This document shows, piece after piece, positions 1-21,735 of a DNA stretch of 22,168 bases. Both the position numbers and the translations under genes were made by a program. The first letter of the stretch is position 1. Every line of letters starts with the position of its first letter. The stretch lies in assembly GCA_030696435.1 (NCBI GenBank), contig JAUYSF010000277.1:1-22168 (forward strand), in the 5' to 3' direction. Below the pieces are notes generated by a model that had not been told where the DNA came from, did no database searches, and saw only the letters and a list, made by a program, of their open reading frames with translations. The DNA is from Desulfoprunum sp. (GTDB taxonomy: Bacteria > Desulfobacterota > Desulfobulbia > Desulfobulbales > Desulfocapsaceae).

Positions 1-2582
1 GGTATTTCTACCTGTCCGTGTTCTACAGAAGTGAACTGTGCTGCTTGAACTGCCGCAGACAACTGTGGTAAGGGCAAATCATCCACTGCAGCCTCTTCAC
101 CCACTTCTTCAAAAACTGCAAGGAACTCGTTATCTTCATCTTGAAGAGAAGGCTCAGCGATAAATGCTGTTGCAGCATATATATCTACACTAGCTTCAGC
201 ATCCTTATCAAAGGCCCCAACCCGATCAATCTCGCCTGTTTTCAAGGCAGAAACACCTTCCGGCAATGCAGAAGATGCCTCGGGTTCAAAATCGAGGGAG
301 AGGTCTTCGGCCTCTGCAACCTGCCCTTCGTCTTTTTTCTGGCTTTCAATGAGGTTTTCTTCTTCGGTAGAGCTGAAGAAAAGCTCCTCAGCTTCCTCAA
401 CCAATTCAAAGACAACTTCTTCAGGTTCTTCAGGTGTTGAAATGAGCTGTACAGCTTCACTCACGGGGCCATGATCATCCTCTCCTCCGAGAACTTCCTG
501 CTCAAAGAGAGAAACTGTCGGTTGTACCTCGGCGAAAAAGGCGAGCGCCGGTTCACTCTCGACCACCGCCTGATGTTGCTCTTCTTGCGTTGCGGCGATA
601 CTGATCTCTTGTGAGATTATGTCACCAGTAGGTTCGACAAAAAGTTCATCTGAACGCAAGTGTTGTTCGAAGTTCTCCTGCCGACTTTCAACTGATGTTT
701 TTTCATCCACTTCCTCAAGGGCAAAGAAAGATTCCAGATGATCTTCTAATGCGACCTCGGTTTCAGAATCCGCACTTGGCAAGCCAGCGCCTGCACTCTC
801 CTCGCGAAGACTACCAGGCAAGGCTGGTAGCGGCTCATCAGACACAAAGAGCGTTTCTGCTGCATTTTCCAAGGCCGTTTCAGCTTCACGGGAAAAATCG
901 GTGATAGGTTCCTCTGAGAGAGCCGAAGCCAGATCACCGCCGGCAAACATCAGTACCTCTTCATCAGAAGCGTCATCATCCTCCGACTCGACATCGACAC
1001 CCGGCAAGACTACCTGCTCTTTGAAAGAGCTTTCTTCATCGACAAGGATTTTAGCCGATTCGTTTCCGATATCTGCAAATTCATCTTCCGACAAGGAGAG
1101 CACCGGCGTGTCTTCAGCCCGTTCCATTTCTTCGGCGAAGAAATCATCCAGACGTGTTTCAAGATCTCCAGCAAGTTCAGCCTGTTTTTCGGTTTTATCA
1201 AGAATTTTTAATTCTTTCCAATTTTCCGTACCAAGCTCTGCCAAAGCCGGAGCAAGCTGCCCTGCCTCCAGTGGTAGATCTTCTTCACCGGAATCATCAT
1301 CGGCCTCGGTCTCCACATCGACTCCCCGTAATGCCGCGTCCTGTCCAACGTACAGGGTAGCCGAGCTTCCATCTTCAACAGAATCTGTTTGAAAAATTGA
1401 ATCCAACTGCGCTTCAGCTGCGTCTCGAAATTCGTCTCTTGTGTCCTTTTCTAGTGAAGCAGAGATTTTTGCAGAATCTACATGTAACTGCTCGGCATCA
1501 GGTTCCTCAGAAAAAAACATATCAATCTGACTAGCCACGTTCAGTGTTGAGGGTAGCCCAAGGGAGGCGGCCTCTTCTTCTTCCTGAAACCCTCTGGTCT
1601 CGCCTTCCGGCAGATCAGAAAAGGCCGGTGAGAGTCCTCCCTCCTCAACCTCCTCGTCATCTTCGCTAAACTCTTCATCCCTCCCAGCCTGAATCGACTC
1701 GGATGAGATTGTCGAACCGACAATTACTTTAAAGGTGTTGAATTTTTCGACCTCTGGGAACAAAATCGCTTTTTCTTCTTCAAGCGTAAGAGGAGTGGAC
1801 ACTATTTTTTCCAACCCGGCAAAAAATGAATGCAGCAGTTTGAATGCATCGGCATGCGCGTTACTTTTTTTGAGCCTAATATAGGCTCCCAGAGATCCGA
1901 TGCCCTGCAGAAAGATCAGTTTTGGTCGACTTCCAGAGAATACCCCTTCGAGTCTGATAACCTCGTCACGCAGCTTTCCGAGGTCTTTTTCAGTTATCTC
2001 CCAGTCAATCCCCAGGACAATTGCCTTCAGATCCAATAGGAAATTTTTAGCCGCAGAAGCTCCGGATGCTTCAAACTCAGACACTCTGTCTTCAGCTAGG
2101 TCTGTTTTTTTCCTTTCAGCTTTCGCGGCCTTGCCTATTTGTTGTTTAAGTTTTTCAAACCTTTTAACATCTTCAAGAAGTATCTGCTTTTTCTCTTCCT
2201 CGGGCATGTCTTCAGACGAGATGATCTTCTCCAGGTTATAATAAAACGTAAGCAGCAGTTTTATGGCATTGGGATTAGAATCGGCCTTTTCCTGGTAGAT
2301 ATATTTACTTATCTTCTCCAGGGCCTGGACATATACCAGATAGATCTTCTCACCCGCCCAAATATCCTTGAGATCTAGAAGCTCCTCATTAAACTGCCGG
2401 AGGATATCATCAGTGATCTCCCAGTCAATGGACAGAACAAGCGATTTGAGCTTGGCAATCGGCGACTCGTCATAACTGGGAAACTCAAACAGGTCGACAT
2501 TATCCGTCTGGAAGGAATCGTTATACTCATCTGCAACAACAGTCAGATCATCGTCATATTGCTTTTCTGTATACTGTTCCAC
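1..2582 (-). CDS. Giant acidic repeat protein, partial (C-terminus beyond left edge)
   Basis: One minus-strand frame stays open from a GTG at 2582 to the left edge: 860 codons without a stop, so the 3' end is missing. I recognise no named family. Residues about 42-153 and 183-287 are two diverged copies of a roughly 105-residue domain, each starting with a hydrophobic stretch and the signature IDWEIT and predicted helical. From about residue 290 the chain is very rich in Glu and Asp, low in Lys and Arg, and looks disordered, with recurrent short motifs such as QIDMFFSEEP, RLDDFFAEEM and HLESFFALEE. No signal peptide or membrane segment is visible, so it should be cytoplasmic. It starts 12 bases after the mglA-like stop codon and in the same frame, so it belongs to the mglB-mglA transcription unit. 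A scaffold or effector for the GTPase is a reasonable inference, not shown. The GTG has only a weak GAGAG ribosome site, but no other start lies nearby. Confidence 0.85.
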   Translation of the reverse strand, partial: MEQYTEKQYDDDLTVVADEYNDSFQTDNVDLFEFPSYDESPIAKLKSLVLSIDWEITDDILRQFNEELLDLKDIWAGEKIYLVYVQALEKISKYIYQEKADSNPNAIKLLLTFYYNLEKIISSEDMPEEEKKQILLEDVKRFEKLKQQIGKAAKAERKKTDLAEDRVSEFEASGASAAKNFLLDLKAIVLGIDWEITEKDLGKLRDEVIRLEGVFSGSRPKLIFLQGIGSLGAYIRLKKSNAHADAFKLLHSFFAGLEKIVSTPLTLEEEKAILFPEVEKFNTFKVIVGSTISSESIQAGRDEEFSEDDEEVEEGGLSPAFSDLPEGETRGFQEEEEAASLGLPSTLNVASQIDMFFSEEPDAEQLHVDSAKISASLEKDTRDEFRDAAEAQLDSIFQTDSVEDGSSATLYVGQDAALRGVDVETEADDDSGEEDLPLEAGQLAPALAELGTENWKELKILDKTEKQAELAGDLETRLDDFFAEEMERAEDTPVLSLSEDEFADIGNESAKILVDEESSFKEQVVLPGVDVESEDDDASDEEVLMFAGGDLASALSEEPITDFSREAETALENAAETLFVSDEPLPALPGSLREESAGAGLPSADSETEVALEDHLESFFALEEVDEKTSVESRQENFEQHLRSDELFVEPTGDIISQEISIAATQEEQHQAVVESEPALAFFAEVQPTVSLFEQEVLGGEDDHGPVSEAVQLISTPEEPEEVVFELVEEAEELFFSSTEEENLIESQKKDEGQVAEAEDLSLDFEPEASSALPEGVSALKTGEIDRVGAFDKDAEASVDIYAATAFIAEPSLQDEDNEFLAVFEEVGEEAAVDDLPLPQLSAAVQAAQFTSVEHGQVEI
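915..1330 (-). repeat. Repeated GVDVE acidic segment in the giant protein
   Basis: Two segments of about 30 residues repeat: LRGVDVETEADDDSGEED followed by AGQLAPAL (about 1240-1330), and LPGVDVESEDDDASDEE followed by AGGDLASAL (about 915-1008). The GVDVE codons (1311-1325 and 987-1001) are offset by exactly 324 bases (108 codons). A short aromatic motif with Leu-Asp before IF or FF precedes each copy. This suggests the acidic tail grew by duplication of a unit of about 108 residues. Confidence 0.65.
1722..2460 (-). repeat. Two tandem copies of a ~105-residue domain
   Basis: Inside the acidic protein, copy 1 (about 2130-2460) and copy 2 (about 1722-2036) align over their whole length. Copy 1 begins LKSLVLSIDWEIT and copy 2 LKAIVLGIDWEIT. 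Later matches are FYYNLEKIIS with FFAGLEKIVS, and EEEKKQILLEDVKRF with EEEKAILFPEVEKF. The DNA is also similar at the IDWEIT segment. The copies are separated by a charged linker of about 30 residues. This is an old internal duplication of a helical domain. Confidence 0.75.
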
Positions 2583-2594
2583 CGCGCGTTCTCT

Positions 2595-3200
2595 CTAGAG
2601 TAATTTTTTCTGTATTGAAACAACCGTGGAAGAAATGATTTTCTTTAGAGTTGCCGCAACATTATATCCAGTAATAGCACTCGCCTCAAAATAAGGAACC
2701 TGCAATCTGCTGTTGAGATCTTTCTGCAAAACAGCAATCGGCAGGATGGGTATACCGTGTTCTTTGAGATCCACTTTATTGTACTGCATGACCAAGGGGA
2801 TTTTAAAAATACTCTCTTTATATGTTTGAAGATTCTCATGAAGCTGATTTAAGGAACGGATATTCTTCTCTCTCTGCTTTTCCATGGCATCTGCCACAAA
2901 TACTATGCCATCAACACCCCGAAGAACAAGCTTGCGCGTCGCATTATACTTTACCTGACCAGGAACGGTGTAGAGTTGAATTTTGATATCGTAGCCCTTG
3001 ATCTGCCCCATATCGAAGGGGAGAAAATCAAAAAACAATGTTCTGTCACCATGTGTTTTAAGGCTGACCATTTCGGATAAAATCTGTTTACGGTACGTAC
3101 GATTGATGTACTCAAGATTGGTTGTCTTCCCGCACCTTCCCGGACCGTAATAGACAATTTTTACCTGAACAACCTTATCTTTCAGATTGATAAAGCTCAA
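2595..3200 (-). CDS. mglA: MglA-like small Ras-family GTPase
   Basis: This 201-residue protein is a bacterial Ras-like GTPase of the MglA group, which switches between GDP and GTP forms to set cell polarity, for example for type IV pili or gliding in Myxococcus. The P-loop is GPGRCGKT (19-26), switch I holds RTLFFDFLP (53-61), the G3 region reads TVPGQ (78-82) and the G4 motif is NKVD (141-144). Thr78 in place of the usual G3 Asp, and the presence of Arg53 and Gln82, match Myxococcus MglA position for position. The start is TTG with GGAGGAG just upstream. It lies 73 bases after the roadblock gene and 12 bases before the giant acidic gene, so the three are probably co-transcribed. Family assignment is firm; which structure it polarises is unknown. 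Confidence 0.95.
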   Translation of the reverse strand: MSFINLKDKVVQVKIVYYGPGRCGKTTNLEYINRTYRKQILSEMVSLKTHGDRTLFFDFLPFDMGQIKGYDIKIQLYTVPGQVKYNATRKLVLRGVDGIVFVADAMEKQREKNIRSLNQLHENLQTYKESIFKIPLVMQYNKVDLKEHGIPILPIAVLQKDLNSRLQVPYFEASAITGYNVAATLKKIISSTVVSIQKKLL

Positions 3201-3273
3201 GGACTCCTCCCCCAGTTGTAACTCTGCTCGTTGGTTTCAGCTCAAGGCCTGTTGCCGCCATGCGTACACGCGA

Positions 3274-3672
3274 CTATCTTTTGTCCCAGACCTTTCTGAT
3301 TTTCTCAATCACATCGACAACATTGAGTCGCAAAAAGCCAAGGGAAATATCCTTACCGAACATGGAAATAAGGAGCAGTTCATCGTCAATCTTGCTGAAA
3401 TGAATATTTGATTCCTGGCCCTTGTGAAAAAGCAGGGAGAACTCCTGTTCACCAACGAGTTTTGCCATAGCATCAACAGTGGCAAAATTACCGGCAGCCA
3501 GAGCAGCAAAAGAATACACATCATATTTGCTTGTGCCGTTGTCTCTGGCTGTAATGATATTTCCCGCCATGTCTATAATTATGACGCAGTCGACACCAAG
3601 TTTTATCAATTTATCCGACAAAATTGAGTCTATCTGCTCAAGTTGTTCCTGACTGACAATCCCATAATTCAT
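3274..3672 (-). CDS. mglB: Roadblock/LC7 protein, MglB-like GTPase regulator
   Basis: This 132-residue protein has a single roadblock/LC7 domain covering nearly its whole length. Typical blocks are VIIIDMAGNIITARDNG (about 30-46), the alanine-rich helix SFAALAAGNFATVDAM (about 54-69), and the strand DELLLISMFG followed by SLGFLRLNV. In Myxococcus, MglB is the GTPase-activating partner and polarity mate of MglA, and adjacency to the MglA-like gene supports the same role here. It is shorter than Myxococcus MglB, mainly lacking a long C-terminal tail. The ATG at 3672 has GAGGAA about seven bases upstream; another ATG five bases upstream is out of frame. It is the first gene of the minus-strand unit and follows a long AT-rich upstream region. 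Confidence 0.92.
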   Translation of the reverse strand: MNYGIVSQEQLEQIDSILSDKLIKLGVDCVIIIDMAGNIITARDNGTSKYDVYSFAALAAGNFATVDAMAKLVGEQEFSLLFHKGQESNIHFSKIDDELLLISMFGKDISLGFLRLNVVDVIEKIRKVWDKR

Positions 3673-12490: not shown

Positions 12491-12539
12491 TTACACGGCA
12501 AGCTGATCATGGCTCATATAAAAACTGCTTAAAACGACA

Positions 12540-12571
12540 CGAGCCGACATTACATTTGCAATGCCGGCTCG
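12540..12571 (-). terminator. Terminator after rpiB (end of the fab operon)
   Basis: CGAGCCG (12540-12546) pairs with CGGCTCG (12565-12571), extended by CATT/AATG across one mismatch, with an eight-base loop. On the minus strand it is followed by TGTCGTTTTAAGCAGTTTTT, a broken T-run, so it is a moderate intrinsic terminator 24 bases after the rpiB stop. Confidence 0.6.
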
Positions 12572-12594
12572 TTAACAGTCATTTTTCGGCTCTA

Positions 12595-13026
12595 TTAGCC
12601 CTCGGAATATTTATCAATGCGCTGCTGATGTCTCCCGCCGGCAAAGGAAGTTGCAAGCCACACCTTGACAAGCTCCACAGCAACTCCCTCTCCGATTACC
12701 CTGGCACCAAGACAGAGAATATTGGCGTTGTTATGCTCCCTGCTCTTACGGGCTGTATATTCATCATGACAGATGGCTGCCCGGATTTTCCGATGACGGT
12801 TGGCCGCGATGGACATACCAATACCTGTTCCGCAGATCAAGATGCCGCTATCGCTCTTACCTGCCGTTATCGCTGCAGCAACGAGATCGGCGTAGTCCGG
12901 GTAGTCGACGGATTGCAGAGAGTGACAGCCCATATCCGCAACCTCGTGCCCCAAAGAGTGGAGCAGTTTTGCAATCGACTCTTTGAGAGCAAAACCACCA
13001 TGATCTGCAGCCAGCGCAATCTTCAT
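12595..13026 (-). CDS. rpiB: Ribose-5-phosphate isomerase B (RpiB/LacAB family)
   Basis: This 143-residue enzyme interconverts ribose 5-phosphate and ribulose 5-phosphate in the pentose phosphate pathway. The start MKIALAADHGGFALKE, the DYPDYA motif and the catalytic Cys65 in GILICGTGIGMSIAANR match RpiB. AAGGAGG lies five bases before the ATG. It is 19 bases downstream of fabF and the terminator follows, so it is the last gene of the fatty-acid operon. RpiB following fabF is a gene order I recall from other deltaproteobacteria. RpiB is the likely type rather than an allose-phosphate isomerase, but the substrate cannot be fully fixed from sequence. Confidence 0.93.
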   Translation of the reverse strand: MKIALAADHGGFALKESIAKLLHSLGHEVADMGCHSLQSVDYPDYADLVAAAITAGKSDSGILICGTGIGMSIAANRHRKIRAAICHDEYTARKSREHNNANILCLGARVIGEGVAVELVKVWLATSFAGGRHQQRIDKYSEG

Positions 13027-13045
13027 AAGGCCTCCTTGGAGAGTT

Positions 13046-14290
13046 TCATTTCCCGTTGTACCGCTTCATGGCAACTACAGCATTGGTACCACCAAAACCA
13101 AAGGAGTTTGACAATGCCGCATCAATCCGCATTTCACGTGCTTGCTTAGGCACATAATCCAGATCACATTCAGGGCTTGGCTCCTCCAGATTGGCCGTTG
13201 GCGGTGCAATCTGCTCAGATATGCTCAATGCAGTAAAAACCGCCTCAATACCGCCTGCTGCCCCAAGCATATGCCCCGTCATGGATTTTGTTGAGCTGAT
13301 AGCCAGGTGTCCAGCGTGTTCTTTGAAAACAGTTTTGATTGCCAGGGTCTCACATCGATCGTTGAGAGGGGTAGATGTACCGTGGGCATTGATATATTGA
13401 ATTCCTTCCAGTGGTAATCCGGCATCCTCAAGAGCCATTTGCATGGCCCGAGCCCCTCCTTCACCGTTCTCCGGAGGAGCGGCAATATGATAGGCATCAC
13501 TACTCAGGCCATACCCGCAAATCTCGGCGTATATCCGGGCCCCTCTGGACCGAGCATGCTCGAGTTCTTCGAGAATGAGCATTCCGGAGCCTTCCGACAT
13601 GATAAAGCCATCACGATCCTTGTCAAAGGGTCGCGATGCCAGTTCCGGCTCATCATTTCTGCTGGAAAGGGCTTTCATAGCACTGAATCCGGCAACTCCG
13701 AGTGGACAGATAACCGCCTCTGCTCCTCCGGCAACGACGATATCACAAAAGCCGTATTGAATATGCCGAAAAGCCTCCCCAACTGCATGGGTACCCGCCG
13801 CGCAGGCCGTAGTAAGCGTGAGATTGGGTCCTTTCGAGCCCAGTTGCATAGATATATGGCCCGAAGGCATATTGGGGATCACCATGGGGATAAAAAATGG
13901 GGTGATTTTCCGTGGCCCTTTCTCAAGACATACCAGATGATACTTCTCAATGGTTGGCAGACCACCCATTCCGCATCCGGTGATGACCCCGACACGACCA
14001 CAATTCTCATCATCGATTTCAAACCCACTGTCCTTGGCAGCCATCAGCGCTGCCACAACACCGTATTGCACAAAAAGGTCGAGATGCTTAGAAGACTTTT
14101 TGTCAAGGAAGTCATCCACCTGAAAGTCCTTGACCTCTGCAGCAATTTTCACCTGATAGTCAGTCGTATCGAAACGGGTAATCAGGCCCACGCCACTCTT
14201 ACCCGCACAGATATTCGCCCATGTCTTGGAAACACCAGTACCCAGGGGGGTTACCAGACCGACACCTGTAACCACAACTCTGCGCTTCAC
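13046..14290 (-). CDS. fabF: 3-oxoacyl-ACP synthase II (KAS II)
   Basis: This 414-residue condensing enzyme elongates acyl-ACP with malonyl-ACP. The catalytic triad falls exactly at the E. coli FabF positions: Cys163 in TTACAAGTHA, His303 in NAHGTSTPLND, and His340 in STKSMTGHMLGAAGG. The protein is intact and of normal length. It starts with GTG, preceded by AAGGAG eight bases upstream. The gene follows acpP by 60 bases and is followed by rpiB after 19 bases. No fabB-like second synthase is in the window. Confidence 0.97.
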   Translation of the reverse strand: MKRRVVVTGVGLVTPLGTGVSKTWANICAGKSGVGLITRFDTTDYQVKIAAEVKDFQVDDFLDKKSSKHLDLFVQYGVVAALMAAKDSGFEIDDENCGRVGVITGCGMGGLPTIEKYHLVCLEKGPRKITPFFIPMVIPNMPSGHISMQLGSKGPNLTLTTACAAGTHAVGEAFRHIQYGFCDIVVAGGAEAVICPLGVAGFSAMKALSSRNDEPELASRPFDKDRDGFIMSEGSGMLILEELEHARSRGARIYAEICGYGLSSDAYHIAAPPENGEGGARAMQMALEDAGLPLEGIQYINAHGTSTPLNDRCETLAIKTVFKEHAGHLAISSTKSMTGHMLGAAGGIEAVFTALSISEQIAPPTANLEEPSPECDLDYVPKQAREMRIDAALSNSFGFGGTNAVVAMKRYNGK

Positions 14291-14350
14291 AATAGGATCT
14301 CCTTCAAGCTGTATGTCCTGCTCAACAGATGGGTTTGAAATTTCGTGATA

Positions 14351-14581
14351 TTATTTCAGTTTTTTCACGTAATCAATGGCGTCCTGAACGGTAACAATCT
14401 TTTCGGCATCCTCATCCGGAATCTCTATATCAAACCCTTCCTCCATCGCCATGATCAGCTCTACCAGATCGAGAGAATCAGCACCCAGATCATCAACAAA
14501 AGAGGCATTGGGAACAACCTTGTCCTTCTCAACACTCAACTGCTCTACGATAATATCGATCATTTCTTGCTCTACAGCCAT
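14351..14581 (-). CDS. acpP: Acyl carrier protein
   Basis: This 76-residue acidic protein carries growing acyl chains on a phosphopantetheine arm attached to Ser36 in [10 protein letters not shown]. The sequence is close to E. coli AcpP along its length ([31 protein letters not shown]). I chose the ATG at 14581 because GGGAGA lies six bases before it; the ATG at 14587 is directly adjacent to that ribosome site. A 128-base gap with a possible promoter separates it from fabG, consistent with the high expression usual for acpP. Confidence 0.96.
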
Positions 14582-14637
14582 TGTCATTCTCCCTTAGTGT
14601 AAAAGTATTAGAATTTCGGCGACCGGCACACTCTTTG

Positions 14638-14667
14638 TGTATACCAGCCAGTCCAATATCTATCCAA
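14638..14667 (-). promoter_or_regulatory. Possible internal promoter before acpP
   Basis: On the minus strand, TTGGAT (14667-14662) and TATACA (14643-14638) are 18 bases apart, about 60 bases before acpP. The match to consensus is partial. An internal acpP promoter would fit the need for more carrier protein than enzyme. Confidence 0.25.
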
Positions 14668-14709
14668 GAATTTATGGGTGCCAAAAAAAGAACAGCCCAT
14701 AGTACAGTT

Positions 14710-15453
14710 TCACATATACATGCCGCCATTCACGTGCAGCGTTTGACCGGTCAGATAGCGACCGTCATCACTCACCAGATAGGCAACAGCTCCGGCCACA
14801 TCCTCGGGGGTACCAAGCCAACCCAGAGGTATCTCTTTCTTGAGTTGCTCCTGAACTTCTTCCGGCAGCGCATCCGTCATGTCAGTCAATATATAACCAG
14901 GTGCCACACTGTTGACCGTAATATTTCTCGACGCAAGTTCCCTGGCCATTGCCTTGGTGATCCCCACAAGACCTGCCTTGGCTGCCGCATAGTTGACCTG
15001 GCCGGCGTTGCCGGTAAAACCTATGACCGAAGATATGTTCACAATTCGGCCCCAACGCTGCTTCATCATCGGTTTTGATGCTGCCTTGGCACAGAAGAAT
15101 GCGCCCTTCAGATTGGTAGCCAATACTGCATCCCAGTCCGCTTCTTTCATCCGGGCAACAAGGCCATCGCGGGTGATACCGGCATTATTGATCAGCACGT
15201 CAATACGCCCAGATTCATCGACGATCTGTTTAAAGGCAGTCTGGATTTGCTCAGGAACAGCGACATCAAAAGCCAAGATTCTGGCATTGCCTCCTGCCGA
15301 CTCAATGAGTCTTTTCGTTTCTTCGGCTGCATCGGATCGGCTGACATAATTGATATACACCAGAGCTCCCATGGTCGCAAGACGCAGAGAGATTGCCCGA
15401 CCGATTCCACGGCTCCCACCAGTTACAACAGCGACTTTTCCTTGCAAATTCAT
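14710..15453 (-). CDS. fabG: 3-oxoacyl-ACP reductase
   Basis: This 247-residue short-chain dehydrogenase reduces 3-oxoacyl-ACP to 3-hydroxyacyl-ACP with NADPH. It shows the nucleotide motif TGGSRGIG (11-18), NNAG (89-92), and the catalytic set Asn114, Ser142, Tyr155 and Lys159 in the YAAAK motif. The end HVNGGMYM is typical of FabG. The start codon overlaps the etfA stop codon (ATGA), so translation is coupled to etfA. This ties the electron-transfer module physically to fatty-acid synthesis. Many other SDRs share this fold, but the neighbours acpP and fabF make FabG secure. Confidence 0.96.
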   Translation of the reverse strand: MNLQGKVAVVTGGSRGIGRAISLRLATMGALVYINYVSRSDAAEETKRLIESAGGNARILAFDVAVPEQIQTAFKQIVDESGRIDVLINNAGITRDGLVARMKEADWDAVLATNLKGAFFCAKAASKPMMKQRWGRIVNISSVIGFTGNAGQVNYAAAKAGLVGITKAMARELASRNITVNSVAPGYILTDMTDALPEEVQEQLKKEIPLGWLGTPEDVAGAVAYLVSDDGRYLTGQTLHVNGGMYM

Positions 15454-16643
15454 GCCCGACGATAGTCCTCAATTTTATTGATCAACTTGGGTATTACCTC
15501 GTACAGGTCACCCACAATACCGAAATCGGCGACGTCAAATATTGATGCATGGGCGTCCCGATTGATTGCCACAATTGTCTCCGATGACTGCATCCCGGCG
15601 ACGTGCTGAACAGCGCCCGAAATACCACAGGCGATATAGAGTTTGGGGGCGACAGTCTTACCTGTCTGACCGACCTGATGCGGATAGGGGATCCAACCTG
15701 CGTCAACAACCGCCCGTGATGCCGAGATATTGGCCCCGAGTGTGTCGGCAAGTTTTTGTAACAGCTCAAACCCCTTCGGGTTTTCCAGACCGCGTCCGCC
15801 TGAAACGAGAATATCAGCCTCCTGGATATTCACATTGCTTCCCTGGGACATGACCTCTTCAACGACACGAATACGGCTCTGCAATTGCAAAGACGTGGGG
15901 ATAACATCAATGATCTGGCCAACTCTCTCAGCGTTATATTCAAGCGACTGCATTACATGTGGACGCACGGTTGCCATTTGGGGACGAGATGACGGACAGA
16001 CGATGGTCGCCATGATATTTCCGCCAAAGGCCGGGCGAGTCTGCATCAAGGCGCCGTCTTCGTCACGGATATCAAGACCGGTGCAATCAGCCGTCAGCCC
16101 GGCATTCAGCGTTGTGGCAACACCCGGGATAAACGAGCGGCCGATGGCTGTGGCTCCGGCGAGAACAATCTCCGGGCGATGTTCCTTCACTAGGGCAGTG
16201 ACCAGCTTGGCGTAACAGTCTTCGGAAAAATGCCGTAGCTTTTCATGATCGAGCCGGAATACTTTATCAGCCCCATGGGCTATCAGAGATTTGGCGGTCT
16301 CGCCGGTGTCATGTCCAATCAGAATCGCGCTGAGCTGTACTCCTCTCCTGTCTGCAAGACGTCGACCGACACCAAGAAGCTCAAGCGCCACCGAGGCAAG
16401 CACTCCCTGCCGAAATTCACAATAGACCCAGACACCGGACCAAGAAGCAAGATCAACCTGCACCGATTTTTCCGTCCCCTCCAGTGCCAGGGCGGCCACA
16501 TCACAGCTCTCCACACAAGCGCCACATAAGGTGCAGGAATCACCGACAACTGCAATCCCATTCTCAATCTCAATCGCAGAGAAAGGACACTGGCCCACAC
16601 AGATCCCGCATCCGATACAGAGATCTTCATTGACTTTCAACAT
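15450..16643 (-). CDS. etfA: Electron transfer flavoprotein alpha subunit with N-terminal two-[4Fe-4S] ferredoxin domain
   Basis: This 397-residue protein is EtfA with an extra N-terminal domain. Residues 1-60 hold two ferredoxin motifs: CIGCGICVGQCP (Cys9, 12, 15, 19) and CTLCGACVESCD (Cys37, 40, 43, 47). The EtfA core follows, and the C-terminal FAD domain has SRAVVDAGWIPYPHQVG and LYIACGISGAVQH. Such fused EtfA subunits are known in anaerobes, for example CarE of Acetobacterium, where they accompany flavin-based electron bifurcation. AGGAGA lies nine bases before the ATG. It is 21 bases downstream of etfB and its stop overlaps the fabG start. It probably pairs with EtfB and the neighbouring acyl-CoA dehydrogenase. 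Bifurcation is inferred, not shown. Confidence 0.92.
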   Translation of the reverse strand: MLKVNEDLCIGCGICVGQCPFSAIEIENGIAVVGDSCTLCGACVESCDVAALALEGTEKSVQVDLASWSGVWVYCEFRQGVLASVALELLGVGRRLADRRGVQLSAILIGHDTGETAKSLIAHGADKVFRLDHEKLRHFSEDCYAKLVTALVKEHRPEIVLAGATAIGRSFIPGVATTLNAGLTADCTGLDIRDEDGALMQTRPAFGGNIMATIVCPSSRPQMATVRPHVMQSLEYNAERVGQIIDVIPTSLQLQSRIRVVEEVMSQGSNVNIQEADILVSGGRGLENPKGFELLQKLADTLGANISASRAVVDAGWIPYPHQVGQTGKTVAPKLYIACGISGAVQHVAGMQSSETIVAINRDAHASIFDVADFGIVGDLYEVIPKLINKIEDYRRA

Positions 16644-16664
16644 TTCAGAATTCTCCTGCGGTGA

Positions 16665-17444
16665 CTATAAGTACGGAGCAAGCTTGACCACAAGCTGTGC
16701 AATCTGTTCATCAAGGTTCCCTGCAAAAACTGCCTTCTCACCTCTGGCCTGAGGTGGAAATACCTTCATGACCTGGGTGGGAGAACCCGGAAGGCCTATA
16801 CAGCGGGGATCCGCACCGATATCCGCAGCCGTCATCCTCTTGATCTGGGCCTTTTTTGCCTTCATCTTGCCCTTCAAGGAGGGGACTCTGGGTTCATTGA
16901 TATCTTTAACCACGGTCAGCAAGACTGGCAACTCGGTTTCCACGACATCATACCCATCATCCATCATCCTCTCGACCACAATCTCCTTGCCAGCCACCTG
17001 GCGAATCTTCTGGACACAGGCGATACAGGGGATATCAAGTCGCATGGCGAGTCCCGGACCTACCTGGGCAGTATCCCCATCGATCGCCTGCTTACCGCAG
17101 AGGATGAGATCGAAGGTCCCTATTGTTCTGACAGCTTTTTCAAGGGTATAGGCGGTCGCCCATGTGTCAGCACCGGCAAATGCCCTGTCGGAAATCAGTA
17201 CGGCTTGATCAGCACCGCAGGAGATTGCCTGACGTAGGACCTCTTCGGCTTGAGGCGGACCCATAGTTATGACCGTCACTTCACCACCATGCACCTCGAC
17301 AAGGCGTACAGCCTCCTCAAGAGCATACTGATCGTAGGGGTTCATAATCGACTCAACCCCTTCTCGCGCTAGCGTATTGGTCACAGTATCCAGGTGGACA
17401 TCCTTTGCGTCCGGAACCTGTTTAACACAGACAATAATATTCAT
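16665..17444 (-). CDS. etfB: Electron transfer flavoprotein beta subunit
   Basis: This 259-residue protein is the partner of EtfA. Recognisable blocks are NIIVCVKQVPD at the start, IMNPYDQYALEEAVRL, VTVITMGPPQAEE, DRAFAGADTWATAYTL and GKQAIDGDTAQVGPGLA. These last blocks resemble EtfB proteins of anaerobic bifurcating systems such as Clostridium Bcd-Etf more than those of aerobic respiratory Etf, which is my reading from memory. The ATG has only a weak ribosome site (AGGTT). It lies 84 bases after the acyl-CoA dehydrogenase gene and 21 before etfA. Whether it binds FAD with NADH access (bifurcating) or AMP (plain Etf) needs a structural alignment. Confidence 0.93.
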   Translation of the reverse strand: MNIIVCVKQVPDAKDVHLDTVTNTLAREGVESIMNPYDQYALEEAVRLVEVHGGEVTVITMGPPQAEEVLRQAISCGADQAVLISDRAFAGADTWATAYTLEKAVRTIGTFDLILCGKQAIDGDTAQVGPGLAMRLDIPCIACVQKIRQVAGKEIVVERMMDDGYDVVETELPVLLTVVKDINEPRVPSLKGKMKAKKAQIKRMTAADIGADPRCIGLPGSPTQVMKVFPPQARGEKAVFAGNLDEQIAQLVVKLAPYL

Positions 17445-17528
17445 TGCAATAACCTGTTCAATTCTTTTCTGACTCTTATTCTTCTGAGCAAAGGTCTTGT
17501 CGTTACCTGGTAAAAAGGGGCTCTGCTA

Positions 17529-18680
17529 TTACTGGGCATATTCCCGATTGAGTTCCTGGCCGACAACATTGCGCTGAATCTGGTTTGTGCCTTCATAGAT
17601 CTGCAGGATCTTGGCATCACGCATCATTTTTTCCACCGGATATTCACACATATAGCCGTATCCACCCATGACCTGAACGGCATCGGTCGTCACCTTCATA
17701 GCAATGTCCGTGGCAAAAACCTTGCACATGGAAGAGGCCTTAGACATGTCTTTCGGATGGGCATCAATGTGCTTTGCTGCACTGTAAACCAGAGCCCGCG
17801 CTGCCTCAATCCCGATGGCCATGTCCGCCAGCATATGTTGAACCGCTTGGAATGCCATGATTGGTTTACCAAATTGTACCCGTTGTTTGGCATACCGTGC
17901 GGCGGCGTCAAGTGCGCCCTGGGCGAGTCCGACTCCAAGGGCGGCAATTCCCGGCCTTGAAGAATCGAGCGTCTTCATAACCGTGATAAAGCCTGATCCC
18001 TGTTTGCCGATAATTCTGTCCTTGGGAATACGGCAATCTTTAAAAATGAGCTCTGTCGTTGATGAAGCCCGGATCCCCATTTTTTTCTCTTTCGGCCCAC
18101 AGGAGAAGCCCGGATCCCCAGCCTCAACAACAAACATGGAGGCGCCACGCGGTCCTTTGCTGCGATCGGTGATAGCGACTACTGTATAAATATCGGCCTC
18201 ACCACCGTTGGTAATCCATTGTTTCGTGCCATTGAGCACCCATGCATCACCATCGAGCACAGCCGTGGTCTGAATGCCTGAGGCATCCGACCCGGCATTC
18301 GCTTCGGTCAGGCCAAAGGCCGCAAATTTTCGCCCTGAGGCGACATCGGGCAGATATCGCTGCTTCATCTCCTCCGAGCCTGAGATGAGGATCGGATAGA
18401 TCCCCAGTGAGCTGGCAGCAAAGGCTGTAGCTACACCGATACAACCTCGCCCGAGCTGTTCCAGAGCCAGGACGATATCAAAACAGCCTCCGCCAAATCC
18501 ACCATATTCCTCAGGAATAGGAACACCAAACAGATCAGCTCGAGCCATTTCATTGAGTATCGCCCGAGGAAATTCATGTTTTTCATCAAGTTCGGCGCGT
18601 TGGGGAATAATCCGCTCATCAGTTATCTGTCGAGCAATATCGACAATCATAACTTGTTCTTCAGATAAAAAATAATCCAT
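17529..18680 (-). CDS. Acyl-CoA dehydrogenase family flavoenzyme
   Basis: This 383-residue enzyme has the full acyl-CoA dehydrogenase fold: N-terminal helices (1-120), a beta domain with FGLTEANAGSDASG (FAD contact) and WITNGG, and a C-terminal four-helix domain ending IYEGTNQIQRNVVG. Glu363 in YEGT is the likely catalytic base, as in short- and medium-chain enzymes such as butyryl-CoA dehydrogenase. AGGAGAG is five bases before the ATG. It sits between fabH (115-base gap with a hairpin) and etfB, in the order dehydrogenase-EtfB-EtfA seen in CarCDE. It either oxidises acyl-CoA or, run backwards, reduces an enoyl-thioester. Its place inside a fab operon favours a reductive role, but that is inference and the substrate is unknown. 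Confidence 0.93.
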   Translation of the reverse strand: MDYFLSEEQVMIVDIARQITDERIIPQRAELDEKHEFPRAILNEMARADLFGVPIPEEYGGFGGGCFDIVLALEQLGRGCIGVATAFAASSLGIYPILISGSEEMKQRYLPDVASGRKFAAFGLTEANAGSDASGIQTTAVLDGDAWVLNGTKQWITNGGEADIYTVVAITDRSKGPRGASMFVVEAGDPGFSCGPKEKKMGIRASSTTELIFKDCRIPKDRIIGKQGSGFITVMKTLDSSRPGIAALGVGLAQGALDAAARYAKQRVQFGKPIMAFQAVQHMLADMAIGIEAARALVYSAAKHIDAHPKDMSKASSMCKVFATDIAMKVTTDAVQVMGGYGYMCEYPVEKMMRDAKILQIYEGTNQIQRNVVGQELNREYAQ

Positions 18681-18756
18681 AATTCTCTCCTGTTGAGAAG
18701 CCGTCAGGAAATAGCCATCACATTTCTGACTCTTTCGCTACAGCTCCATAGCCGGT

Positions 18757-18771
18757 CGCGGCATTGCCGCG
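18757..18771. repeat. GC-rich hairpin between fabH and the acyl-CoA dehydrogenase gene
   Basis: CGCGGCA-T-TGCCGCG is a perfect inverted repeat with 7-base arms around one base, forming at least a 5-base-pair stem with a 5-base loop. It begins 24 bases after the fabH stop. No T-run follows on the minus (operon) strand, so it is not a normal terminator. It could protect the 3' end of an upstream mRNA segment or tune read-through. Confidence 0.5.
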
Positions 18772-18795
18772 TTACGGTCTTTTTTGCACACCGGC

Positions 18796-19770
18796 TTACC
18801 ATTTAATCAGGGTTGCGCCCCAAGTAAGACCACCCCCGAAAGTACAAAATAAAATCGTATCTCCTGCAGAAATGCGCCCTTCCCTCTTCGCCTCATCCAA
18901 GGCAATTGGTATGGAGGCCGCAGAAGTATTACCATACTCAGCAACGTTGATAAATACTTTTTCTTTTGGAATTTCAAGTCTTTCTATTAAGTTATTAAGA
19001 ATACGGATGTTTGCCTGATGGGGAATGACCAGCTTCACGGAATCAAGTGAAATCTGCTCCTTTGCCAGCAACCCCCGCACGGCATCTTCCATGGCCTTGA
19101 CTGCATACTTAAAGATCTCCCGACCTTCCATGATGATATGACTTCCAGGATTTTCTTCAATGCACAGCTCAGGATTGTTGCTTTTCGGGGCATGCATGTA
19201 TAACAACTTCCAGAGGTTACCGTCAGAAAAAAAGTTAGAGCCGATATAGCCGCAATCGCCCTCCTGATGGCCAATAATCACCGCTCCCGCCCCATCACCA
19301 AAGAGGATACAGGTATTCCGATCCGCCCAGTTCAGTCGGGCTGAGAGAACCTCCGCACCGACAATCAGAATTTTCTTCTCGCTATCGGCACGGACATATT
19401 TATCGCCCAGATCAAGGGCATAGAGAAATCCTGAGCAAGCGGCATTCACATCATAGGCAAAGGCCTTGGTAGCCCCCAGCTCTTTCTGCACAAAACAGGC
19501 ACAGGACGGCATAAGCATGTGCGAACTGATAGTGGCAACGACTATAATATCAAGTTCTTTTGCATCTATACCAGACATCAGAAGGGCCTTTCTGGATGCT
19601 TCGGTGGCTAGGTTGTACGTCTGCTCGCCCTTTCCGCTTATGCGTCGAGCATTGATCCCGGTCCTGCTCTGAATCCACTCGGCAGAGGTATCAACAATCT
19701 CTTCCAAGTCGTGATTGGTGACTATTTTCTCAGGCAGACATGAACCAGTGCCCAGGATTACTGTTCCCAT
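18796..19770 (-). CDS. fabH: 3-oxoacyl-ACP synthase III (KAS III)
   Basis: This 324-residue enzyme starts fatty-acid synthesis by condensing acetyl-CoA (or a branched or short acyl-CoA) with malonyl-ACP. The catalytic triad is Cys112 in DVNAACSGF, His251 in IPHQANIRI, and Asn281 in EYGNTSAASIP, and the N-terminal block TSAEWIQSRTGINARR is typical. GGAG lies six bases before the ATG. The gene overlaps the plsX stop codon by one base (TAATG), so translation is coupled. The starter substrate cannot be read from sequence alone. Confidence 0.97.
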   Translation of the reverse strand: MGTVILGTGSCLPEKIVTNHDLEEIVDTSAEWIQSRTGINARRISGKGEQTYNLATEASRKALLMSGIDAKELDIIVVATISSHMLMPSCACFVQKELGATKAFAYDVNAACSGFLYALDLGDKYVRADSEKKILIVGAEVLSARLNWADRNTCILFGDGAGAVIIGHQEGDCGYIGSNFFSDGNLWKLLYMHAPKSNNPELCIEENPGSHIIMEGREIFKYAVKAMEDAVRGLLAKEQISLDSVKLVIPHQANIRILNNLIERLEIPKEKVFINVAEYGNTSAASIPIALDEAKREGRISAGDTILFCTFGGGLTWGATLIKW

Positions 19771-20789
19771 TACGACTCCATCAGCATATCATTGCCATCT
19801 GCGGCAAGGCTCTTGAGAATATCATTATTGACATTATTCTTGACCATCTTGATGGCTTCGAGAATTGCATTTTTTATAGCCTGGGCATTAGACTTCCCAT
19901 GGCAGATAATGCCTGTCCCGTTGATTCCCAGAAGCGGTGCTCCACCGTATTCGGCGTAATCGACCCGCTTTTTAAAGGCCCGGAAAGCAGGACGTGCCAA
20001 CAGATAGCCTATCTTGGCAGGAAAAGATTTGAGGATTTCATTCCTGAGCATCTGCATGGCAGCCTCGGCCAATCCCTCACTCACTTTCAGGCAGATATTT
20101 CCAACAAAACCGTCACAGACGATGACATCGACATTGCCCTGAAAGACATCGCGCCCCTCAACGTTCCCGATAAAATTCAGAGAGCTGTTTTTCAGGAGTG
20201 CATATGTCTCCTTGACCAAGAGATTGCCCTTCCCACCCTCTTCACCAATAGTAAGAAGACCTATACGAGGTTCAGCAATGTCAAATATTCGAGAGAAGCA
20301 CGAGGCCATAACGGCAAACTGATACAGGTGCAAAGGTCTGCAATCGACATTTGCGCCAACATCCATGAGTACCACCGGTTTTTTGAGAGTGGGAAAAAAG
20401 GAAGCTATCCCCGGCCGAGAAACACCTGTCAGACGACCGAGCACTCGCACTGCTGCAGCCATAGTTGCCCCCGAATTACCGGCACTGACTGCAGCATCTG
20501 CCTCGCCCTTGCGGACAAGATCGAATGCAACCATTATGGAAGAGTCTTTTTTCTTGCGGACTGCATCAACAGGATGCTCATTCATCTCTACAACCTGCGA
20601 AGAATGAACAATCTGTATGAGCGATTCCGTCTTTGCGTCAGGAGAAATTTTATCGAGGTGTGATCGCAGAAGGACTTCGTCTCCCACCAGGCTGACCTTG
20701 ATCTGTGTCTGCTCAACGGCAAGTAATGCCCCGGCAATCAACTCCTCCGGGCCATGGTCTCCTCCCATGGCGTCCAGGGCAATGTGCAC
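19770..20789 (-). CDS. plsX: Phosphate acyltransferase PlsX
   Basis: This 339-residue peripheral membrane enzyme converts acyl-ACP and phosphate into acyl-phosphate, the donor used by PlsY in phospholipid synthesis. It starts with the family signature HIALDAMGGDHGPE and carries SAGNSGATMAAAV, RPGIASFFPT, LMDVGANVDCRP, FIGNVEGRDVF and CDGFVGNICLK, all typical. The start is GTG with AGGAGGT a few bases upstream. It follows rpmF by nine bases and overlaps fabH by one base, in the standard rpmF-plsX-fabH order. Confidence 0.97.
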   Translation of the reverse strand: MHIALDAMGGDHGPEELIAGALLAVEQTQIKVSLVGDEVLLRSHLDKISPDAKTESLIQIVHSSQVVEMNEHPVDAVRKKKDSSIMVAFDLVRKGEADAAVSAGNSGATMAAAVRVLGRLTGVSRPGIASFFPTLKKPVVLMDVGANVDCRPLHLYQFAVMASCFSRIFDIAEPRIGLLTIGEEGGKGNLLVKETYALLKNSSLNFIGNVEGRDVFQGNVDVIVCDGFVGNICLKVSEGLAEAAMQMLRNEILKSFPAKIGYLLARPAFRAFKKRVDYAEYGGAPLLGINGTGIICHGKSNAQAIKNAILEAIKMVKNNVNNDILKSLAADGNDMLMES

Positions 20790-20798
20790 AACGACCTC

Positions 20799-20987
20799 CT
20801 ACTCTATTTGAGCATCAAGAGTAAAAACCGTACGCCCCTTATATTTTCCACAACTGGCGCACAGGCGATGAGGCTCTTTCGGTTCCCCGCAATCGGCACA
20901 GAGTGAGACACCTGGCGCTTTCAGGCCATCATGAGACCGTCTTTTGTGGGTACGAGAGTGAGAATGTCTTCTTTTTGGCAGAGCCAT
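20799..20987 (-). CDS. rpmF: Ribosomal protein L32 (zinc-binding form)
   Basis: This 62-residue 50S protein starts ALPKRRHSHSRTHKRRSHDG and has two zinc-binding pairs, CADC (Cys30, Cys33) and CASC (Cys43, Cys46). It is the cysteine-containing type rather than the zinc-free form. I chose the ATG at 20987 because GGAGGT is five bases upstream; a TTG four codons earlier lies inside that ribosome site. It sits between yceD and plsX as in many proteobacteria. Confidence 0.96.
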   Translation of the reverse strand: MALPKRRHSHSRTHKRRSHDGLKAPGVSLCADCGEPKEPHRLCASCGKYKGRTVFTLDAQIE

Positions 20988-21033
20988 AATTACCTCCAAT
21001 AGGTATGTCGATATCGATGTAATCGAGTTTAAT

Positions 21034-21549
21034 TTATGCCTTCCGCAGTCTTTTCAAAACAGCGAAAGGTGAATTTGAACTGCTTGTCGAACAATCGCAG
21101 TTCTCATTTTTCAACAGTGCACCACAGACTGAGCATAGTCCCTGGCAATCTTCAGCACAAAGAGTCCTTACAGGCACAGCAAGGAGAACCTGTTCCCTAA
21201 AAATCATATCCAAATCAATGACGGGATCCTTGAGGTAGAGTGTATTGCAGTCCTCGGTACTACACTCAAGCTCCGACATTTCAGGATTATTCTGCTCTTC
21301 GAGGGTGAGTATGTACTCAAACTCCTCTTGTATTCGGCTTTCCACAGGAACTCCGCATCGGTCACACGCCAGCAGTGCTGTAAACCGGACCACTCCCTTT
21401 AAATGCACCGTCTTGTTGGTCTTTTTACAGACCTCAAACTCGGCCAGCACGGGTTGACAGCAGACCAGTTCGTCCGCCGGAAACCAGGAGACTTCACTTA
21501 GGGAATAATGAGATTGCTCCTGAGAAATCTCAGCAAATGCCAATTTCAT
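21034..21549 (-). CDS. yceD: YceD/DUF177-family protein
   Basis: This 171-residue protein belongs to the DUF177/YceD family, whose members precede rpmF and have been linked to 23S rRNA or ribosome assembly. Two likely metal-binding cysteine sets are Cys62/Cys65 in ACDRCG and Cys131, 135, 139, 142 in LCAEDCQGLCSVCG. The middle is acidic. GAGGT is six bases before the ATG. It is the first gene of the cluster, 46 bases before rpmF. The role is inferred from its neighbours. Confidence 0.88.
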   Translation of the reverse strand: MKLAFAEISQEQSHYSLSEVSWFPADELVCCQPVLAEFEVCKKTNKTVHLKGVVRFTALLACDRCGVPVESRIQEEFEYILTLEEQNNPEMSELECSTEDCNTLYLKDPVIDLDMIFREQVLLAVPVRTLCAEDCQGLCSVCGALLKNENCDCSTSSSNSPFAVLKRLRKA

Positions 21550-21735
21550 CGATTACCTCAGTAAATGAACCACAGTTCGATTGAGAAACAAAAACTGCGA
21601 TGATAATAAATTTTGCCTAGAATGGCTAGAAAAAAATAGAAAAGGGGTTTGGACATTCAACCTCTCTTTGCGAACAGTCCTTCTCTGCAGACTGCGGTCC
21701 ATCTCCGAGCACGCTAGTCGAAACAGTACCCTTAC

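Follow-up and report, generated by a model that had tools for sequence, protein, structure and literature searches.

A conserved acyl-CoA dehydrogenase/electron transfer flavoprotein module in bacterial fatty-acid synthesis operons as a probable enoyl-thioester reductase

Why an acyl-CoA dehydrogenase and an electron transfer flavoprotein (Etf) should be encoded in the middle of a fatty-acid synthesis operon is the question raised by a contig of Desulfoprunum sp. (Desulfobacterota; assembly GCA_030696435.1, contig JAUYSF010000277.1). The whole stretch of 22,168 nucleotides, here called the window, is the entire contig C219 of a genome bin of 3.82 Mb in 494 contigs that is 93% complete. Its minus strand carries a run of genes in the order yceD-like, plsX, fabH, acd, etfB, etfA, fabG, acpP, fabF and rpiB (Table 1), in which acd encodes a flavoprotein of the acyl-CoA dehydrogenase (ACAD) fold, hereafter ACD, from a family known above all for fatty-acid degradation, and etfA an alpha subunit fused to a ferredoxin domain. 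A preliminary description of the window had placed the three genes between fabH and fabG on one strand, with etfA and fabG overlapping, and had reported neither fabD nor fabZ nor an enoyl reductase; the arrangement has been confirmed in full, and no known enoyl reductase, fabD or fabZ has been seen within the window. Given the linkage to fab genes over several phyla, the occurrence of the Etf alone beside fabD and the avoidance of FabI, acd-etfB-etfA probably encodes an ACAD-fold, Etf-fed enoyl-thioester reductase of type II fatty-acid synthesis, whose substrate would most likely be trans-2-enoyl-acyl carrier protein (enoyl-ACP). The gene content, the signatures, the conserved fab linkage and the avoidance of FabI have been established directly, as set out below.

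To find loci, the window EtfA was aligned with 12 of its 120 listed homologues (13 rows), and with this alignment the best 80 of at least 579 confirmed relatives on genome contigs were taken as the locus set. In the 16 best-listed loci (L018-L033), several of them titled Desulfobulbaceae, Desulforhopalus, Desulfocapsa or Desulfobulbus, etfA is followed by fabG throughout, and acd and fabH lie upstream in 15, the remaining locus (L033) beginning inside the module. Another 15 of the best 80 loci carry fab genes on the same strand as the Etf. The order plsX-(fabH)-acd-etfB-etfA-fabD-fabG has been found in L036, L037, L059 and L067 (L037 without a fabH match), acd-etfB-etfA-fabG in L068 (no plsX, fabH or fabD match), and fabG-acpP-fabF-acd-etfB-etfA in the Omnitrophota loci L039, L046, L061, L072, L073 and L089 as well as in L060, which is cut by the contig. 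In L038, L044 and L086, etfB-etfA stand directly before fabD and the ACD is encoded on a different contig of the same genomes; the Etf is thus tied to fab genes independently of the ACD. Linkage has therewith been seen in Nitrospirota-, Omnitrophota- and WS1-titled loci besides Desulfobacterota.

The ACD has also been followed in a Nitrospirota-centred sample of 118 genomes (the phylum of G025, at least 85% completeness requested) and in 197 genomes of the window's phylum, Desulfobacterota (at least 90% complete). At E ≤ 1e-130, a single ACD with at least 69% identity to that of L059 was found in 54 of the 118 genomes, and a match to the window ACD in 97 of the 197. All ACD loci except those of G025 (which is L059 already) and of the window's genome (G000) were compared, giving 53 Nitrospirota and 96 Desulfobacterota loci, and linkage was counted from fab genes on the ACD strand within 7 kb. 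At least two fab genes lie near the ACD in 86 of the 96 Desulfobacterota loci, 50 with and 36 without an Etf nearby; two loci, both at contig ends, have one fab gene, and eight have none, of which two have yceD and Etf as neighbours at a contig end and six come from one family, f28. The corresponding Nitrospirota loci (n = 53) show at least two fab genes in 16, fabD and Etf only in 9 and none in 28. Desulfobacterota thus show strong fab linkage, whereas that of Nitrospirota is partial. In family f28 (L225, L313, L315-L318), acd-etfB-etfA of the same wider ACD group have no neighbouring fab genes, and the Etfs are far less similar (EtfB 37-43%, EtfA 30-34% identity).

The 118- and 197-genome samples have been surveyed for ACD and FabI only, and FabI was called strong at E ≤ 1e-80 in the Nitrospirota sample and at E ≤ 1e-60 in Desulfobacterota. 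In the former, strong FabI occurs in none of the 54 ACD genomes as against 50 of the 64 others, the lone weak match in an ACD genome (G086) reaching 158 bits. In the latter it occurs in 2 of the 97 ACD genomes (G321 and G340, of one family) as against 34 of the 100 others, and weaker matches have been found in 16 more genomes, 13 of them with an ACD. The Fisher p values of 9e-21 and 1e-9, respectively, ignore kinship and serve as a guide only; at the level of families, one is shared among 32 ACD and 18 FabI families (p 7e-4, assuming 79 families from the highest label). At E ≤ 1e-32, below which some FabLs may score, 82 of the 97 Desulfobacterota ACD genomes show no FabI/FabL-type match.

Further enoyl reductases have been surveyed in 34 genomes picked from the best 80 loci, namely those of the 16 best-listed loci, 14 fab-linked ones (L060 omitted) and four unlinked Omnitrophota, for which no completeness figures are given, at E ≤ 1e-25 for FabI, 1e-30 for FabK, 1e-65 for FabL and 1e-3 for FabV. 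The FabI model matched in 15 of the 34, all within the 16 best-listed and none over its cut-off (positive control: 9 of 14 named genomes). When the window's genome is included, FabK passed its cut-off in none of 35 genomes and matched at the survey threshold in 17 (G000, 13 of the 16 best-listed, G017, G018 and G021; control matches in 7 of 14 named genomes), and FabL passed in 13, the window's genome and 12 of the 16 best-listed, with a control match in B. subtilis alone. The FabV search, in which no control genome matched and which therefore stands without a positive control, gave two weak fragments only, one in G004 and one in G024, where 24 residues score just above the cut-off. With this limit on FabV, 14 of the 18 further ACD/Etf genomes, including 12 of the 14 fab-linked ones, showed no FabI, FabK, FabL or FabV match; the remaining four are G017, G018 and G021 with FabK-like matches and G024 with the FabV fragment.

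Regarding the protein itself, the ACD passes the cut-offs of PF02771, PF02770 and PF00441 (N-terminal, middle and C-terminal ACAD domains), and its NCBIfam and Pfam matches are confined to ACAD families, with no membership in a short-chain dehydrogenase/reductase (SDR) or FabK-type family. Its closest solved structure is Bcd of C. difficile (5ol2, 414 bits), CarC reaching 322 bits. A YEGT motif, the Glu of which we take to be the catalytic base, is located at residue 362 and is present in 126 of 140 fab-linked ACDs. A quick tree built from 71 ACDs unites the copies from Desulfobacterota, Nitrospirota and Omnitrophota in a single group of 62 rows (SH-aLRT 96), which includes a few loci titled otherwise and leaves the C. 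difficile Bcd outside. On this tree, the labels fab-linked and unlinked need 11 changes as compared with a mean of 23 for shuffled labels, which fits a decay of gene order in some lineages. The WS1 copy in L067 (7900-9045), although in a fab operon, branches outside the 62-row group and suggests that an ACD may have been recruited separately to the same operon position. A preference for ACP could not be read from charge, as the median isoelectric point is 6.30 in both fab-linked and unlinked ACDs and thus uninformative. The bin holds a second plsX-fabH-acd-etfB-etfA block (L169, G000:C248, 4259 bp), whose ACD is 86-87% identical to that of the window and groups in the tree with the Desulforhopalus copy L025; either a second operon or a co-binned contig could account for it.

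The kinship of the Etf subunits is with bifurcating systems. EtfA finds its best structural match in CarE (6fah, 446 bits over 391 residues), followed by four bifurcating-type Etfs at 302-282 bits, and EtfB in CarD (6fah, 245 bits), followed by other bifurcating-type subunits at 229-220 bits, whereas the entries that we take to be classical Etfs reach at most 168 bits with EtfA and 97 bits with EtfB. The features described for bifurcating Etfs comprise DGDTAQVGP (beta-FAD), RxFxG (NAD) and SPT in EtfB and an arginine in EtfA (PMC9232219), which in CarE is Arg203 and contacts N5 of the beta-FAD (PMC5861303). All four markers are carried by the window proteins: RAFAG at residue 87, an exact DGDTAQVGP at 122 and SPT at 221 of EtfB, and Arg203 of EtfA, which aligns with Arg203 of CarE. 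The N-terminal part of EtfA has eight cluster cysteines in two complete CxxCxxCxxxC motifs (residues 9 and 37). Among 109 fab-linked EtfBs, DGDTAQVGP is complete in 104, RxFxG present in 100 and SPT in 73; among 106 fab-linked EtfAs, RPxFGGN is found in 93, and two cluster motifs in 94, one in 2 and none in 10. Eight Cloacimonadota-titled loci (L071, L078, L081, L083-L085, L096, L097) encode an EtfA of the ferredoxin-fused type with no nearby EtfB or ACD at the BLAST threshold used.

The reducing direction, ACP as the carrier, the use of NADH and bifurcation are inferred. The dehydrogenase would run in the reducing direction, fed by the Car-type Etf: NADH would reduce the beta-FAD in EtfB, from which one electron would reach the dehydrogenase FAD by way of the alpha-FAD in EtfA and, after two rounds, this dehydrogenase FAD would saturate the C2=C3 bond made by FabZ, while the other electrons would flow via the two [4Fe-4S] clusters of EtfA to ferredoxin. 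In the window's clade the module would work beside a FabL-type reductase, and in most of the surveyed Nitrospirota- and Omnitrophota-type genomes it would be the only enoyl-reductase candidate found. That bifurcation comes on top of the enoyl-reductase role is a possibility, suggested by the sequence markers, to which we give slightly less than an even chance.

Among known systems, CarCDE of Acetobacterium woodii (6fah), in which NADH, an enoyl thioester and ferredoxin are coupled (PMC5861303), shares with the window the dehydrogenase-EtfB-EtfA make-up and the two-cluster ferredoxin domain of EtfA; unlike it, the window module lies inside a fab operon, and its ACD is nearer to Bcd than to CarC. 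Bcd-EtfAB of C. difficile (5ol2) shares the fold, the expected chemistry and the bifurcating Etf type, but acts on crotonyl-CoA, with a stoichiometry of about 2 NADH per enoyl thioester and with ferredoxin reduced (PMC5691135), has an EtfA that aligns only after the ferredoxin domain of the window EtfA, and stands outside the fab-type ACD group. The reaction proposed here is that of FabI, FabI2, FabK, FabL, FabL2 and FabV, of which all reported classes are SDRs except FabK, which is an FMN protein (PMC6817880); an ACAD with an Etf is of neither kind, yet may work like one. FabX of Helicobacter pylori is likewise a redox flavoprotein on acyl-ACP within fatty-acid synthesis, but it works in the oxidising direction, belongs to the NMO family, and no Etf partner is mentioned in the excerpts of its description (PMC8626469). 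The acryloyl-CoA reductase AcrCAB (NF042970-NF042972) ranks first or second among the NCBIfam matches of the three subunits, all of which stay below the curated cut-offs (429/640, 229/475 and 365/600 bits). Among the open-licence PubMed Central papers listed, none describes an ACD/Etf enoyl reductase in fatty-acid synthesis, subscription journals and preprints lying outside this coverage; a study comparing the fatty-acid gene clusters of Kuenenia with those of 137 other organisms including Desulfotalea (PMC2649909) does not contain the term "electron transfer flavoprotein".

Several observations weigh against an enoyl-reducing, bifurcating module. FabL passes its cut-off in the window's bin and in 12 of the 16 best-listed relatives, so that in this clade the module is not required for want of an alternative, and three of the 18 further genomes have FabK-like matches that stay below cut-off, G018 alone having nine with up to 358 bits. 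The avoidance of FabI follows clades, and its p values overstate independence; moreover, neither ACD nor strong FabI is found in 14 of the 118 and 66 of the 197 genomes, so other reductases must exist. In 49 of the best 80 EtfA loci no fab gene stands beside the Etf (L084 has a fabZ match on the opposite strand). Among these 49 are short contigs, Etf systems of other kinds and acd-etfB-etfA sets of Omnitrophota that lack fab genes; some of the latter sets adjoin smc-like genes, as judged by eye. The Etf is absent near the ACD in the 36 Desulfobacterota loci already mentioned, and 26 of the 53 Nitrospirota loci have neither fab gene nor Etf near it. The ACD reaches the curated cut-off of no enoyl-reducing family, AcrC included, DGDTAQVGP is nearly as common in unlinked EtfBs (37 of 46) as in fab-linked ones, and some non-bifurcating Etfs are close kin of bifurcating ones (PMC9232219), which leaves the Etf signatures short of proof for bifurcation.

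These points open the way to other explanations. The ACD could oxidise acyl-ACP in a FabX-like manner, re-making trans-2-enoyl-ACP for anaerobic unsaturated-fatty-acid synthesis while the Etf drains the electrons; FabX, a dehydrogenase/isomerase on decanoyl-ACP within fatty-acid synthesis, sets a precedent (PMC8626469), and the FabL of the window's bin would be available for the reductive step. We consider this improbable, as FabX belongs to the NMO and not the ACAD family (PMC8626469), genomes with ACD and fabG-acpP-fabF but no FabI, FabK, FabL or FabV match would lack a recognised reductive step, and the avoidance of FabI fits substitution rather than addition. A similarly low probability is given to genes for fatty-acid breakdown, recycling or short-chain acyl-CoA metabolism that are merely co-regulated with the fab operon. 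The linkage in 86 of 96 Desulfobacterota loci and its recurrence in other phyla, the lack of any other beta-oxidation enzyme among the operon proteins scanned, and the avoidance of FabI genomes by the ACD argue against such a role, for which the proximity of the ACD to the Bcd dehydrogenase, the coverage of the biosynthetic step by FabL and the six f28 loci with a related block away from fab genes can be put forward.

Compatible with enoyl reduction is a variant in which the Etf-fed reaction proceeds without bifurcation, with electrons from ferredoxin or another donor passing straight to the ACD. Donors may indeed vary, as the 36 Desulfobacterota loci without a nearby Etf indicate; non-bifurcating Etfs close to bifurcating ones (PMC9232219) and a canonical Etf feeding Bcd in Fusobacterium (PMC12630350) have been reported. 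We regard it as rather unlikely, since the EtfB and EtfA of the window carry every bifurcation marker examined and score in favour of bifurcating structures (446-282 as against at most 168 bits for EtfA, 245-220 as against at most 97 bits for EtfB).

Matches to fatty-acid genes that are missing from the window lie elsewhere in the bin. A FabL-type enoyl reductase with a Y-x6-K motif is encoded on C349 (374 bits, cut-off 328), a fabD match lies in two parts at the ends of C2 and C204, and a FabZ-type match on C170 stands between lpxD-like and lpxA-like genes (neighbours named by eye). Ten PF13561 (SDR) matches occur in the bin, five of them classified with NCBIfam, and over the whole bin the FabI and FabL models gave no further matches at their thresholds. 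The search for reductases proposed in the preliminary description has yielded FabL, whereas FabI-like and FabK-like proteins stay below cut-off. The enoyl-reducing role suggested there is supported in part: it gains from the conserved fab placement, the Car-type Etf signatures and the avoidance of FabI, and loses from a dedicated reductase encoded elsewhere in the same bin; the gene order is clearly conserved, and placement by chance is contradicted by an arrangement that recurs across phyla. Of the "fabD slot", the position between fabH and fabG holds, but a replacement of fabD has been rejected, with a fabD match on C2/C204 and the order acd-etfB-etfA-fabD-fabG found in some Desulfobacterota loci as well as in Nitrospirota.

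FabL and the window contig have been joined to one organism by binning alone. The guanine-plus-cytosine content is 53.0% in the FabL stretch and 47.6% in the window, and the tetranucleotide distance to the window is 0.19-0.41 for bin stretches of 2-4 kb, which is noisy at that length, while three related loci from other species lie at 0.15. The doubt matters little, because 12 of the 16 relatives carry both FabL and the module. In L001 and in L121, L125, L127, L132-L136 and L138, the gene before FabL, on the same strand, encodes a protein that presumably resembles DUF362; a Maf-like gene follows FabL in L122, L133, L137 and L138, as judged by eye.

Two other candidates from the bin have been set aside. 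A FabI-like SDR on C8 (L005:1456-2265) is doubtful as a housekeeping reductase, with 158 bits against FabI cut-offs of 299-477; it has an Ile where a tyrosine of the FabI chain 6tbb_A aligns, a residue that we assume to be one of the two active-site tyrosines of FabI. This divergent form with an NYGYMAP core is shared by eight relatives (L098-L105); three loci of the family lie beside KASIII- or FabG-like genes, and L005 and L105 beside a ferredoxin-type protein (by eye). As a guess, it might have a role in the gene cluster for polyunsaturated hydrocarbons that has been described from Desulfotalea (PMC2649909). An NMO/FabK-like flavoprotein on C142 (L009:1459-2442; 171 against 453 bits) has not been accepted as FabK; counterparts with similar scores occur in 13 of the 16 best-listed genomes, and it could bear on unsaturated-fatty-acid synthesis.

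Within the gene run of the window (Table 1), the gaps are 84 bp between acd and etfB and 20 bp between etfB and etfA, and the etfA stop overlaps the fabG start by 4 bp (15450-15453). Seven terminator-like sites have been counted in 12500-21700, which is no more than in shuffled sequence; only the one after rpiB has a long stem, the other six having stems of 5-7 bp. At its start (3-3672), the window holds an acidic repetitive open reading frame of 860 residues, followed by the stretches 2595-3200 and 3274-3672, which resemble an MglA-type GTPase and a roadblock-type protein, respectively, as judged by eye.

Table 1. Features of the fatty-acid gene run in the window.
Feature	Coordinates	Strand	Basis or remark
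yceD-like gene, head of cluster	21034..21549	-	27 bits, under model cut-off 192
plsX	19770..20789	-	passes NCBIfam cut-off
fabH	18796..19770	-	passes NCBIfam cut-off; 115 bp upstream of acd
acd, ACAD-fold flavoprotein, proposed enoyl-thioester reductase subunit	17529..18680	-	Pfam ACD domains over cut-off
etfB, bifurcating-type Etf beta subunit	16665..17444	-	ETF domain over Pfam cut-off; motifs
etfA, Etf alpha with N-terminal two-cluster ferredoxin domain	15450..16643	-	ETF domain over Pfam cut-off; motifs
fabG	14710..15453	-	passes NCBIfam cut-off; start overlaps etfA stop by 4 bp
acpP	14351..14587	-	passes NCBIfam cut-off
fabF	13046..14290	-	passes NCBIfam cut-off
rpiB, final gene of run	12595..13026	-	domain match
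terminator-like hairpin 3' of rpiB	12539..12572	-	15-bp stem

Bacterial fatty-acid elongation ends with enoyl reduction, a step that is variable and serves as a drug target. We tentatively propose that the module stands for a new, ACAD-fold and Etf-dependent class of enoyl-ACP reductase, which may predominate across much of Desulfobacterota, Thermodesulfovibrionia-type Nitrospirota and Omnitrophota, and that fatty-acid synthesis may be bifurcating where a Car-type Etf is present. If true, an Etf-fed enzyme of the ACAD fold would fill the missing step in anaerobes that have fabG-acpP-fabF but no recognised reductase match, and biosynthesis would be coupled to ferredoxin reduction, with the energy otherwise lost in each enoyl reduction recovered as reduced ferredoxin. 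The hydride source for membrane lipids would then change, which bears on hydrogen-isotope work on sulfate reducers, in which the argument has been based on FabI and NAD(P)H (PMC4916218). An annotation as "acyl-CoA dehydrogenase" in such genomes need not imply fatty-acid breakdown.

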